Part shown: piece by piece, positions 10,491 to 59,554 of the stretch
Position numbering within the stretch: the stretch's first letter is position 1
Layout of the letters: each line of letters opens with the position of its first letter
From: Chloroflexota bacterium
GTDB taxonomy: Bacteria > Chloroflexota > Dehalococcoidia > Lucifugimonadales > UBA3495
DNA length: 64,000 nucleotides
NCBI GenBank assembly: GCA_009840165.1
Contig: VXOG01000028.1
Coordinates: 91,937-155,936, forward strand
Direction: 5' to 3'
Notes under the pieces: model-generated
Database searches by the model: none
What the model saw: only the letters and a program-made list of their open reading frames with translations
Told to the model about the DNA's origin: nothing
Position numbers and translations under genes: made by a program

Positions 10491-11165
10491 ATGCTACGCT
10501 CCGACTACGACCGCAATCTGACCGACCTGCAAACTGACCTGGCCGAAATGGGCAGCCTGGTGGAATCGGCTACCCAATTGGCTCTTAGTGCCCTCGAATC
10601 CCAAAACGTCGGGCTGGCTCAACAGGTTATTGACGCCGACGACGACATCGACCGCCTGCAAGACGCTCTTGAAAGCAAGTGCGTCATGCTCTTGGCTACT
10701 CAGCAGCCGGCCGCCACCGACTTAAGGGCCGTTTTGTGCGCTGTCCACATCGCCGCCGAGCTGGAGCGCATGGGAGACTACGCCGAGGGCATCGCAAAAA
10801 TCTGCATCCGCATCGGCGATCAGCCTCTGGTCAAGCCGCTGATTGATATTCCGCGAATGGCTGAACTCGCGTTGAAGATGCTTGACGAGAGCTTGCTGGC
10901 GTACACCAGCCGGGACGAATGGCTGGCCCGCAAAGTGTGCGCCGATGACGATGCGATTGACGACCTGTACAATCAGATCTACCGCGAATTGCTGACCTAC
11001 ATGCTCTCCGATCCCAGGACCATTGAGCGCGCTACCTATTTGCTGTGGGTCGCCCACAACCTGGAGCGCATCGCCGACCGGGCCACCAACATCGGCGAGC
11101 GCGTTCTATGGCTGGTCACCGGCAATACCGTGGGCAATCGCCCCGAAAACCGGTCGTTGCGGTAG
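10491..11165 (+). CDS. phoU: Phosphate signalling regulator PhoU
   Basis: A 224-residue all-helical protein with two PhoU repeats, each with the E/DxxxD metal-binding pattern (IDADDDIDRLQ; ADDDAIDDLYNQIYRELLTYM), and the typical LERMGDYAEGIAKI and NLERIADRATNIGERV motifs. It normally links the Pst transporter to the phosphate two-component system. The ORF track starts 44 codons earlier, inside pstB; the ATG used here follows CGGGAGA and begins with the usual family N-terminus. No PhoB/PhoR pair is in the window. Confidence 0.93.
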   Translation: MLRSDYDRNLTDLQTDLAEMGSLVESATQLALSALESQNVGLAQQVIDADDDIDRLQDALESKCVMLLATQQPAATDLRAVLCAVHIAAELERMGDYAEGIAKICIRIGDQPLVKPLIDIPRMAELALKMLDESLLAYTSRDEWLARKVCADDDAIDDLYNQIYRELLTYMLSDPRTIERATYLLWVAHNLERIADRATNIGERVLWLVTGNTVGNRPENRSLR

Positions 11166-11191
11166 ATCCGAAAAATTCGCTCCGGCCAGCG

Positions 11192-11220
11192 TTGACAATT
11201 CCCGACCCCGGCAGTATAGT
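11192..11220 (+). promoter_or_regulatory. Consensus sigma-70 promoter of the sulfite reductase leader
   Basis: TTGACA and TATAGT with a 17-base spacer, the best promoter match in the window. Transcription would be expected to begin about 6-9 bases after the -10 box, which is at or next to the ATG of the cysteine-rich leader ORF (11229). It lies 27 bases after phoU. Confidence 0.8.
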
Positions 11221-11228
11221 TTTCGCAA

Positions 11229-11303
11229 ATGCAAAGTAGTTGCAAAACCGTCGCCTTCTGCACTTGTTCTTGTCCACGCACATTGGGGGCAGGACTACCC
11301 TAA
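11229..11303 (+). CDS. Cysteine-rich leaderless leader peptide (24 residues)
   Basis: This short ORF, too small for the ORF track, begins with ATG eight bases after the -10 box, so the mRNA is predicted to be leaderless. It encodes 24 residues, four of them cysteine (Cys5, 11, 13 and 15; SSCKTVAFCTCSCP), and ends at TAA. It is followed by an intrinsic terminator and then by the sulfite reductase gene. Clustered codons for the end product of the downstream pathway are the hallmark of a ribosome-mediated attenuator: slow cysteinyl-tRNA supply would stall the ribosome within FCTCSC. Mycobacteria are known to use leaderless polycysteine ORFs in this way. Function here is inferred from arrangement only. 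Confidence 0.75.
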   Translation: MQSSCKTVAFCTCSCPRTLGAGLP

Positions 11304-11333
11304 CTTGACCCGTACAGGCGCCGCCCGCTCCCA
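11284..11333 (+). promoter_or_regulatory. Predicted antiterminator pairing of the cysteine attenuator
   Basis: TGGGGGC inside the end of the leader ORF (11284-11290) can pair with GCTCCCA (11327-11333) through seven base pairs, one of them G-U, plus two more after a mismatch. The right arm overlaps the left arm of the terminator, so the two structures exclude each other. A ribosome stalled at the early cysteine codons leaves the left arm free; one that reaches the stop covers it. Confidence 0.55.
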
Positions 11334-11365
11334 CCGATTTTGCCATTGGCACGGTGGGATTTTTT
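11329..11365 (+). terminator. Intrinsic terminator in the sulfite reductase leader
   Basis: TCCCACCG (11329-11336) pairs with CGGTGGGA (11352-11359), with an inner TGCC-ATT-GGCA extension, and is followed directly by TTTTTT. It stands between the leader ORF and the GAGGAGGA ribosome site of the reductase gene, with no gene of its own to terminate, so it must act as an attenuator. Confidence 0.8.
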
Positions 11366-11388
11366 GTGTCACAACCGAGGAGGACACC

Positions 11389-13224
11389 TTGACCACCCAA
11401 GCCCAATCCCCCAGCCTGGAAGACATCCACGCATCCAGCCTCAAGCTGGCGGAAGACGCCGGCGCCATCATCCCGTTCATGGAGGATGAAATTCAGCGTT
11501 TCGACGGTGAGGTCGATCGCTTCCGCACGGGCGAGCTGGACAACACTGTCTTCACCCCGTTCCGCCTGCGTCAAGGCGTGTATGGCCAGCGCCAAGCCGA
11601 TGTGCAGATGATCAGGGTCAAGTTGCCCGGCGGCATCATCTCCGCGGATATGCTCGACTGCTTCGGGGAAATCTCCGAAAAATACGCTCCCCTGAAGAAG
11701 GGGCACATCACCACCCGCGAAAACATCCAGCTCCACCACATCCCGCTGGAGCAAACCTCTGAAGTGCTGCTCGAACTGGGCCGCGTGGGCCTCTCCACCC
11801 GCGAAGCGTGCGGCAACACCGTTCGCAACGTGGTCGGCCCCGCCACAGCCGGCGTGAGTCCAGAGGAAGTGTTTGACCCCACGCCCTACCTGACCGCATA
11901 CGTCCGTTTCGGCGTCCGTCACCCCATCACCCAGAACTTCCCCCGCAAGTTCAAGTCGGCTTTCACCGGCAACGACAAGCGGGACGAAGTGGCGGCGGCG
12001 ATCCAGGACTTGACCTTCGTTTCGCAATACCAGGAAGTGGACGGCGAGCAGCGTAAGGGCTTCAAGGTCTATTGCGGCGGCGGAACGTCCATCATGCCCC
12101 GGCTGGCCAAGCCCCTCTACGAATGGGTATCCGAGGACGACTACCTTCGCGTAGCTCTCGCGGTATGGACCGTTTTCAACAACGCCGACATCCTCCGCAA
12201 GAACCGCATGATGGCCCGCCTCAAGGTGTTGATCGACAAGATCGGCCTGGACGAGTTCCGCACTATGGTGGACGCCGAGTTGGCCAACATAGGCCCCATC
12301 GACTTCCGGCCCCTGATGGCCGCCGAAGAAATCCAGCGCGAAGACCCGCCCACGCAGCCTGCTTCATCCAACGGCAATGATTCCAGCCCGGAATACCAGG
12401 CATGGCTCAACTCCAACGTGGAATCGCAGCGGCAGGATGGCTACCACGTCATCTACATTAAGGCCGTCCGCGGCGACCTCAATCCGGCCCAGTTCCACGG
12501 CCTGGCGGATATAGTCCGCAAGTACACCGGCGGCAAGGCCCGCACCACCCAGGAACAGAACATCGTCCTCCGCTGGGTTCCCACGGGATACCTGCACGAC
12601 GTGTGGGAAGCGCTCAAAGAACTGGAACTCGCCGAAGCCGGCCACAACCACATCAGCAACGTGGTCTCCTGCCCCGGCACCGACAGCTGCAAACTGGGCA
12701 TCACTGCGTCAATGGGATTGGCTAAAGCCCTCCGGGATGAAATGTCGAACTGGAACGGCCTCGCTGATGACGCCGGCGTCGGCGACATCAAAATCAAAAT
12801 GAGCGGCTGCCCCAACGGCTGCGGCCTCCATCACATCGCCAACATCGGGTTCCACGGCGCGGCGGTCAAGGGCGTGGACGCCCAGCAGATACCGTCCTAC
12901 GAACTGTTCCTTGGCGGCAACTACGGCGACAACCAAGTTGAGGACTCTCGGATTGGCACTCGCGTCCCCAAGGTCAAGGTGCCCGCGAAGTTGGTCCCGT
13001 CGGTGCTGAAAGACATCGTCACCTACTACAAGGACAACCGCAGCGACGACTCCGAGAGTTTCAACGACTTCCTTGACCGCGTGGGCCTCGAAGAGCTTAC
13101 TTCGGTCGCTGCCCGCGCCCAGGAAGTTGGACACGAAGCCGAGGGCGGCGGCGAGATGTACTTCGACTGGGAGCGCACCAATCAGTACGTGCTGGAACGC
13201 GGCGAAGGCGAATGCGCCGTCTAG
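11389..13224 (+). CDS. sir: Ferredoxin-type nitrite/sulfite reductase (siroheme, 4Fe-4S)
   Basis: A 611-residue siroheme protein with two ferrodoxin-like/haem-binding halves. The 4Fe-4S-siroheme ligands are Cys428 and Cys434 (SCPGTDSC) and Cys474 and Cys478 (GCPNGC). GHITTRENIQLHHIP and REACGNTVRNVVG in the first half are typical of assimilatory sulfite/nitrite reductases. The start is TTG with GAGGAGGA five bases upstream; the ORF track's 122-residue extension would run through the promoter, leader ORF and terminator and is rejected. The cysteine leader upstream favours sulfite over nitrite as substrate. hemD follows after 21 bases, fitting a need for siroheme. Confidence 0.9.
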   Translation: MTTQAQSPSLEDIHASSLKLAEDAGAIIPFMEDEIQRFDGEVDRFRTGELDNTVFTPFRLRQGVYGQRQADVQMIRVKLPGGIISADMLDCFGEISEKYAPLKKGHITTRENIQLHHIPLEQTSEVLLELGRVGLSTREACGNTVRNVVGPATAGVSPEEVFDPTPYLTAYVRFGVRHPITQNFPRKFKSAFTGNDKRDEVAAAIQDLTFVSQYQEVDGEQRKGFKVYCGGGTSIMPRLAKPLYEWVSEDDYLRVALAVWTVFNNADILRKNRMMARLKVLIDKIGLDEFRTMVDAELANIGPIDFRPLMAAEEIQREDPPTQPASSNGNDSSPEYQAWLNSNVESQRQDGYHVIYIKAVRGDLNPAQFHGLADIVRKYTGGKARTTQEQNIVLRWVPTGYLHDVWEALKELELAEAGHNHISNVVSCPGTDSCKLGITASMGLAKALRDEMSNWNGLADDAGVGDIKIKMSGCPNGCGLHHIANIGFHGAAVKGVDAQQIPSYELFLGGNYGDNQVEDSRIGTRVPKVKVPAKLVPSVLKDIVTYYKDNRSDDSESFNDFLDRVGLEELTSVAARAQEVGHEAEGGGEMYFDWERTNQYVLERGEGECAV

Positions 13225-13245: not shown

Positions 13246-14070
13246 ATGGCTGCGGCATCCCTGAACGGAAGAGTGCTGGCCTTTGTCGAGGCTCGAATGC
13301 CCGACGAAATGGCCAGCCTCATTCGCCGGCATGGTGGCGTCCCCTATGGCGCGCCTGTCCTCCAGGAACACTACCTCAAGGACAGCCCGGAGGTTCAGCA
13401 GGCGATCACGGATGTTTGCGAAGGTCGGGTTGACACCGCCGTCTTTCTAACCGGCGTGGGCGCTAACGCCATGATGGGCATCGCCGAGGCGATGGGACGC
13501 CTGCCGGAGTTTGAGGACGCGCTGCGCGATATTACGGTGGTAGCGCGCAGTCCCAAGCCCGGCCGTGTTCTGCGACGCCACAAAATCCCCATTACCATCA
13601 TGCCGCCCGAACCCTACACTTCCTCGGATCTGACTGCTGCCATGGCGGCGCTGGACCTCAGCGGCAAGAGGGTAGTTTTCCAGCGATACGGCGGTCCCGA
13701 CTCCGAGCTACCGACATACCTGCGCGAACAGGGAGCGAACTACCAGGAACTGACCCTGTATGATTGGGGTCTGCCCGACGACACCAGCCCGGTCGTCAAG
13801 TTGATCGACCGCATAGAACGCGGAGAGGTGGACGCCCTGGCGTTCACCAGCCGACCCCAGGTGCCCAACTTGTTGGACATCGCCACCCAAGCCGGCAAGG
13901 AGGAGTCGCTCAGGAGCAGCCTTGCCGGCTCCGTTGCCGTCGCGTCGGTGGGGCCCGTCTGCACCCGCAAGCTTCTGGAGCAAGGAATCAACGTTGACAT
14001 CGAGCCGGAGCACCCCCACATGGGCAACCTGGTAATGGCCGTAGCCGACTATTTCGACGGCCGCTCCTAG
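13246..14070 (+). CDS. hemD: Uroporphyrinogen-III synthase-like protein
   Basis: A 274-residue cytoplasmic protein with the bilobal HemD pattern: an N-terminal half with VDTAVFLTGVGANAMM and a C-terminal half with VDALAFTSRPQVPNLLD, the paired F-T/L-T-S-x-x-x-v motifs of the family. It cyclises hydroxymethylbilane to uroporphyrinogen III, the precursor of siroheme and haem. It is 21 bases behind the sulfite reductase in the same orientation, suggesting cofactor supply. No sirohaem-forming methyltransferase is in the window. Its stop overlaps the end of the convergent cupin gene by four bases. Confidence 0.85.
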   Translation: MAAASLNGRVLAFVEARMPDEMASLIRRHGGVPYGAPVLQEHYLKDSPEVQQAITDVCEGRVDTAVFLTGVGANAMMGIAEAMGRLPEFEDALRDITVVARSPKPGRVLRRHKIPITIMPPEPYTSSDLTAAMAALDLSGKRVVFQRYGGPDSELPTYLREQGANYQELTLYDWGLPDDTSPVVKLIDRIERGEVDALAFTSRPQVPNLLDIATQAGKEESLRSSLAGSVAVASVGPVCTRKLLEQGINVDIEPEHPHMGNLVMAVADYFDGRS

Positions 14071-56271: not shown

Positions 56272-56346
56272 TGGTAGCGGGGGTTGGACTCGAACCAACG
56301 ACCTTCGGGTTATGAGCCCGACGAGCTGCCACTGCTCCACCCCGCA
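56272..56346 (-). tRNA. Initiator tRNA-Met (CAU)
   Basis: A full cloverleaf including an encoded CCA. The acceptor 5' strand is GCGGGG after an unpaired first base, matching the initiator feature of no 1:72 pair (U1, U72). The anticodon stem carries the three G-C pairs (GGG-CTCATAA-CCC) specific to initiators, and the T-arm is GGTTCGAGTCC. The D-loop is a little short. It lies downstream of the 23S gene and may be processed from the same transcript. Confidence 0.9.
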
Positions 56347-56356
56347 TTGTTGTTGA

Positions 56357-56404
56357 GGGTTACGAACCCGATCCGCTTCTGGCGGACCACTGCTCCACCC
56401 CGCA
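56357..56404 (-). pseudogene. Partial tRNA 5' half, duplicate of the initiator tRNA
   Basis: The first 19 bases match the initiator tRNA exactly (GCGGGGTGGAGCAGTGG), then come a changed D-arm and an anticodon-like stem-loop GGGTTCGTAACCC in which the anticodon would be CGU. No T-arm or acceptor 3' strand follows. It seems to be a duplicated, decayed tRNA half between the 23S and the intact tRNA. Confidence 0.6.
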
Positions 56405-56415
56405 TCGTCCGTAGG

Positions 56416-56486
56416 AAGAAACTGAAATAGGAAGTTTGAACCGTTTTGTCGAGAACCGAGCCAGAAGAATTAGAAGCTCCTGGCGT

Positions 56487-56496
<10 letters not shown>
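56416..56496. repeat. Left arm of an inverted repeat flanking the 23S gene
   Basis: About 80 bases that match the reverse complement of the other arm at 59546-59621. Shared blocks include AATAGGAAGTTTGAAC, AGAACCGAG and GCGTGGGTCAAAT. In the precursor RNA the arms would form a long processing stalk closing the 23S, with a 13-bp perfect inner stem. Confidence 0.75.

Positions 56497-59545
<3,049 letters not shown>

Positions 59546-59554
<9 letters not shown>

Follow-up and report, generated by a model that had tools for sequence, protein, structure and literature searches.

Background

Proteobacteria and Actinobacteria provide the best-known leader-peptide attenuators. In mycobacteria, leaderless ORFs rich in cysteine codons have been described explicitly as lacking conserved terminators (PMC1262725), and leaderless polycysteine ORFs were reported by Canestrari et al. 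2020, here as cited in passages of PMC9031893 and PMC13236596. Streptomyces has the leaderless attenuators leuL, trpL and ilvL, and in several cases hairpins and a U-rich stretch follow the leader (PMC8079986). In the literature we found no report that joins Chloroflexi to leader-peptide transcription attenuation, and no description of cysteine-codon attenuation by intrinsic termination.

We analyzed a stretch of 64,000 nucleotides from a Chloroflexota bacterium (the window) and conclude that positions 11192-11365 very probably form a transcription attenuator of classical, trp-like design that responds to cysteine and acts on a predicted leaderless mRNA. Among the members of the order to which the genome belongs are SAR202-type bacteria from sponges and the deep ocean; nearly all that is known of them comes from metagenome-assembled genomes (MAGs). 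The close relatives by sulfite reductase (83-99% identity) are MAGs labelled Dehalococcoidia, Chloroflexi or "SAR202 cluster bacterium bin87".

Anatomy of the leader and the genes downstream

All features of the locus lie on the plus strand. We detected a sigma-70 type promoter (TTGACA-17-TATAGT, 11192-11220) with 11 of 12 consensus matches and a spacing as in relatives; shuffled sequence of the region holds 0.3 promoter sites on average. The ATG of a short leader ORF (11229) lies 8 nt past the -10 box, which predicts a leaderless mRNA with transcription expected to start at about 11227-11229. The ORF (11229-11303) has 24 codons, encodes MQSSCKTVAFCTCSCPRTLGAGLP and ends with a TAA stop (11301-11303); homologous ORFs with a Cys-x-Cys core are found in relatives. 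Its cysteine codons are codons 5, 11, 13 and 15 (at 11241, 11259, 11265 and 11271), and that of Cys15 (11271-11273) is closest to the hairpin.

The intrinsic terminator (11329-11365), identified by folding and by covariation in 35 relatives, has a stem formed by TCCCACCG (11329-11336) and CGGTGGGA (11352-11359) with an inner 4-bp helix (8+4 bp in all), followed by TTTTTT (11360-11365). The competing antiterminator pairs arm 2 (TGGGGGC.GG, 11284-11293), recognized by ribosome-masked folding and by a 14-nt cysteine spacing in relatives, with arm 3 (CC.GCTCCCA, 11324-11333), recognized by masked folding and by a test of cognate against swapped arms. Since both structures use the 5 nt at 11329-11333, common to the 3' arm of the antiterminator and the 5' arm of the terminator, they are mutually exclusive, as an earlier note on this DNA had proposed. 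All the elements named in that note (TGGGGGC, GCTCCCA, the terminator arms, the T-run and the leader ORF) are present. TGGGGGC (11284-11290), which it had placed at the end of the ORF, in fact occupies codons 19-21 of 24, and its helix with GCTCCCA (11327-11333) is longer than described by 2 bp (11292-11293 with 11324-11325).

The first gene after the terminator (11389-13224, TTG start; PF01077 and PF03460) encodes a NirA-type ferredoxin-dependent sulfite/nitrite reductase whose closest solved chain is Mycobacterium tuberculosis NirA (1zj8). Its Shine-Dalgarno sequence, GAGGAGG (11377-11383), read directly from the DNA, lies outside the hairpins. Judged by sequence, the enzyme, a member of the NirA family, might be a nitrite reductase instead; sulfite is favoured as the substrate because of the cysteine leader and the neighbouring gene for uroporphyrinogen-III synthase of the siroheme pathway (hemD, 13246-14070). 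This second gene probably forms one operon with the reductase gene. Elsewhere in the window, a 23S rRNA gene and one tRNA are located at 56275-59553; 16S and 5S rRNA had no match in the 64 kb, and the rRNA genes appear to be unlinked.

Folding with the ribosome in place

The nascent RNA was folded with everything 5' of the leading edge of the ribosome kept single-stranded, the edge being set 16 nt from the P-site codon. When the A site holds the codon of Cys13 or Cys15, completion of arm 3 is enough for TGGGGGC and GCTCCCA, plus the two additional base pairs, to form a helix of -16.3 kcal/mol, and for a stall at Cys15 the antiterminator has a probability of 0.94-0.97 at transcript ends from 11333 to 11354. 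Once the stop codon occupies the A site, the antiterminator is absent (probability 0; -3.1 kcal/mol) and the terminator hairpin (-17.8 kcal/mol) forms on completion of arm 4. The predicted folds switch with ribosome position, and the suggestion that a ribosome at the stop codon covers TGGGGGC is supported. Stalling had been assigned to Cys11 or Cys13; Cys13 fits, and the conserved and best placed codons are those of Cys13 and Cys15, not Cys11. The same protocol applied to Escherichia coli trpL gave -15.0 kcal/mol when the ribosome was placed on the second Trp codon versus -4.4 kcal/mol at the stop codon, in agreement with the proposal that the geometry is that of classical attenuators.

For the full-length leader, equilibrium folding prefers the terminator in every ribosome state. 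The earlier note had regarded a terminator that wins regardless of the leader as evidence against the switch; we do not count this result as a refutation, since full-length trpL also gives the terminator in both ribosome states. The equilibrium energy test does not discriminate, the choice between the folds being kinetic, and full-leader equilibrium folding was dropped as a test.

Within the window alone, 62 of 200 permutations of the 14-nt arm 2 gave an antiterminator at least as stable as the native one, which is uninformative because the arm is G-rich. When arm 2 (14 nt) was permuted within each of 40 leaders, the native arm beat the permuted mean in 36 of them (mean z -1.46). It is the comparison with relatives, rather than the window sequence alone, that lifts the antiterminator above chance. 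In most relatives arm 1 is CCCCC and can form a protector hairpin with arm 2 (1:2, CCCCC/GGGGG); in the clade of the window (L001-L004) it is CCACG or similar. The protector hairpin is expected to secure termination when the leader is not translated; the state without translation is ambiguous in this clade because the hairpin is eroded and weak there.

Conservation and covariation in relatives

Upstream regions anchored by tblastn were collected from 49 relatives, of which 13 readable ones belong to the genus, 20 readable ones to the rest of the family and 16 to other families of the order. The element precedes the sulfite reductase gene in all 33 readable members of the family (13/13 in the genus, 20/20 in the rest) and in 11 of the 16 relatives from other families. 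In the class outside the order the leader is mostly absent. The single exception is a lone leader, MNIWMLSDLCSCTCWP, followed by a stop codon, with the same architecture upstream of a sulfite reductase gene in another order of the class (L093, genome G064), which may have been acquired by horizontal transfer or be a remnant.

The promoter spacer is 17 nt in 40 of 44 upstream regions. In 36 of the 44 the start codon lies 8-9 nt after the -10 box (scan window 3-12 nt), as fits the leaderless prediction. Despite varying leader length and stop position, 30 of 40 leaders have exactly 14 nt between the last cysteine codon and the GGG of arm 2, so that a ribosome with this codon in the A site has its leading edge immediately ahead of that arm. 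Most stop codons lie in a stretch from 7 nt upstream to 16 nt downstream of the point where arm 2 begins, and a ribosome at the stop therefore covers the arm. The leaders were anchored on their last cysteine codon, which is Cys by definition in 33/33 sulfite reductase (sir) leaders and in 26/26 leaders found upstream of moeB (see below); two codons further 5', cysteine is found in 31/33 and 26/26, respectively. This penultimate cysteine is written TGT in 14 and TGC in 12 of the moeB leaders, with no other codon; what is conserved is cysteine as an amino acid rather than one invariant DNA word. In the family of the window only the Cys-x-Cys codons of the leader peptide are kept, and the remaining residues vary. 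The hairpin and the T-run are conserved in 40 leaders.

Among 35 relatives, the terminator stem covaries, with 10 double-change cells (reached in 0 of 500 shuffles) and 94% pairing versus 39-46% in slid versions. For the antiterminator, 79% of cells are paired versus 47-59% when slid; its two-sided changes in the alignment are not above shuffles, because both arms are nearly invariant. We also compared, free of any alignment, the pairing of each arm 2 with its own arm 3 and with the arm 3 of other genomes, using statistics that ignore phylogeny. Own arms paired more stably in 27 divergent leaders (-13.6 versus -11.2 kcal/mol; 0/5000 permutations, phylogeny ignored), in all 40 sulfite reductase leaders (-15.4 versus -13.9 kcal/mol; 0/5000, likewise) and in 26 moeB leaders (-12.4 versus -11.4 kcal/mol; 4/5000, likewise). 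The covariation that the earlier note had called for is strong for the terminator and, for the antiterminator, not significant in the alignment but supported by the exchange of arms.

A second copy and a possible wider regulon

From 35 sulfite reductase leaders we built a covariance model; its search of 60 relatives detected one second site beyond the training loci in most genomes of the family. All of the second sites read with moeB downstream (28/28, in 28 genomes) have a short ORF ending in Cys-x-Cys, a TAG stop and a G-rich arm, followed by moeB/thiF and a cysteine synthase gene. The window's own genome is one of them and has such a second putative cysteine attenuator upstream of moeB-cysM (G000:C84:37846-37981; L149/L184, 37814-37981), with the leader MLPTRRLILTCACPGT, a stop codon and the same promoter type as the sulfite reductase leader. 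A gene for an Rrf2-family regulator is located directly upstream of this copy. As the same device occurs at the sulfite reductase and at moeB-cysM, the two would form a small cysteine regulon.

In other families, weaker model matches precede genes for TauE with PAPS/APS reductase (twice), rhodanese with YeeE/YedE, sulphur transport, DsrE-like proteins and peroxiredoxin. Because the covariance model is blind to downstream genes, it supports sulfur or cysteine as the signal without bias. One match (L220, E 0.026) lacks a leader ORF and was taken as chance.

Two further elements were seen on minus strands of the window's genome. The first (G000:C73:213265-213303; L146, L185), in front of a DAHP synthase gene, combines a leaderless-type ORF, MVSANGHITVGYCRPFYFYAYRRPVSVNPACEAR, with a terminator-like hairpin behind it, and looks like a Phe/Tyr attenuator. 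The second (G000:C77:37421; L147, L186), before an apparently IscA-like gene, has a leaderless-type promoter, a 19-codon ORF and a hairpin with a T-run, and may be due to chance.

Leaders with a conserved peptide

Order- and class-level relatives also have leaders of the form R[FY]xDDLFHLC with one or two cysteines (L032, L036, L070, L072, L074, L214, L216 and L221-L235), with four copies in one genome (G362) and two in another (G402). DDLFHLC was itself the search pattern, the first seven cases having come from the sulfite reductase and covariance-model searches. The genes downstream encode sulfite reductase, MoeB, PAPS reductase, rhodanese, 1-Cys peroxiredoxin, DUF454 and an uncharacterised lipoprotein, and a terminator-like hairpin follows each leader. 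One pattern match in another class (L236) lacks a leader context and was taken as chance. Within the DDLFHLC codons entropy is zero at non-degenerate positions and reaches 1.9 bits at third positions; synonymous codons change freely, which indicates selection on the peptide itself. R[FY]xDDLFHLC is thus a possible arrest peptide.

More tentatively, and with considerable doubt, we propose for this order of Dehalococcoidia (SAR202-type) a sulfur-assimilation regulon under leaderless leader-peptide attenuators, in some families of which the sensor may have changed from the counting of cysteine codons to the arrest peptide RFxDDLFHLC, spread before at least six kinds of genes. The DDLFHLC offshoot offers a test case for a codon sensor that perhaps turns into a peptide sensor.

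Proposed mechanism and alternative explanations

From the sequence elements, their conservation and geometry and the alternative folds we infer a leaderless start, ribosome stalling, cysteine as the signal and the efficiency of termination. Transcription would begin at or beside the ATG of the leader ORF. With ample Cys-tRNA the ribosome would reach the stop codon, its footprint would lie over arm 2 (11284-11293) and arm 3 would be left free; the terminator (11329-11359) would then form and RNA polymerase would halt at the T-run, upstream of the sulfite reductase gene. With scarce Cys-tRNA the ribosome would stall at Cys13 or Cys15 with its leading edge just before arm 2, which would pair with arm 3 while the polymerase is still on arm 4; the terminator would be blocked and sulfite reductase-hemD transcribed. 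The moeB-cysM genes elsewhere in the genome would be under the same device.

A translated, cysteine-responsive leader might instead act on translation or on Rho-dependent termination, the hairpin being incidental. Leaderless cysteine-rich ORFs without terminators do precede mycobacterial sulfur genes (PMC1262725; Canestrari 2020 as cited in a passage of PMC9031893), but here a covarying hairpin with a T-run is kept in 40 leaders, its arm 3 is common to the antiterminator, and the Shine-Dalgarno sequence of the reductase gene itself lies about 75 nt past the leader stop and outside any hairpin, which makes this explanation improbable. The terminator might also merely close the upstream pst-phoU operon, with the reductase promoter elsewhere and the short ORF a product of chance. 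The proximity of phoU, which ends about 60 bp upstream of the leader ORF on the same strand, speaks for this; against it, a strong promoter separates phoU from the terminator, the element persists next to differing upstream sequence and recurs before moeB-cysM, and at least four cysteines in 23 codons have a chance of about 1e-4 (at 1% Cys). We regard a simple operon terminator as very improbable.

There is also a small chance of an arrest-peptide switch, in which the ribosome is stalled by the nascent peptide, on a signal from a sulfur metabolite, and not through the supply of Cys-tRNA, as the leaders of other families, with RFxDDLFHLC, one or two cysteines and freely changing synonymous codons, could suggest; a pattern search found that peptide absent from the window's genome, whose family keeps just the Cys-x-Cys codons. 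In Firmicutes, SAM riboswitches or Cys T-boxes stand before amino-acid sulfur genes, and the position of our leader would suit either. The conserved part is coding, however, and Rfam searches of 11150-11450 up to E 5 gave no match except a chance lncRNA hit on the opposite strand, so that a metabolite riboswitch or T-box has a next to negligible probability. The leader peptide had no match in NCBIfam. Regulation through cysteine codons, as first suggested, is supported by the anatomy, the masked folding, the order-wide conservation and the independent moeB-cysM copy. It gives such cells a possible route for the control of sulfite reduction and cysteine synthesis, and the simple sequence signature of the leader can be used to find sulfur genes of unknown role.

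Comparison with known systems

Like the mycobacterial polycysteine ORFs (Canestrari et al. 2020, as represented in the citing passages; Seliverstov et al. 2005), the Chloroflexota leader is a cysteine-rich short ORF, predicted leaderless, before sulfur assimilation genes. It belongs to another phylum and has a conserved intrinsic terminator and an antiterminator, whereas the mycobacterial type is without conserved terminators (PMC1262725) and is characterized by an effect on downstream translation. The Streptomyces attenuators (PMC8079986) share the leaderless leader peptide predicted here; they are actinobacterial, and none of the eight listed there is a cysteine leader. The locus shares with E. 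coli trpL-type attenuators regulatory codons in a leader ORF (here cysteine in 4 of 24), an intrinsic terminator with a T-run, a competing antiterminator set by ribosome position and the ribosome geometry, and, as in classical attenuators, the sulfite reductase and cysteine synthase operons that it would control supply its own amino acid. It differs from trpL in its cysteine codons, arranged as Cys-x-Cys, in its predicted leaderless transcript and in the eroded protector hairpin of the window's clade. The type of attenuation is itself known; what appears new, against the literature searched, is probable classical attenuation for cysteine, on a predicted leaderless transcript and by intrinsic termination, in Chloroflexota and as a regulon.
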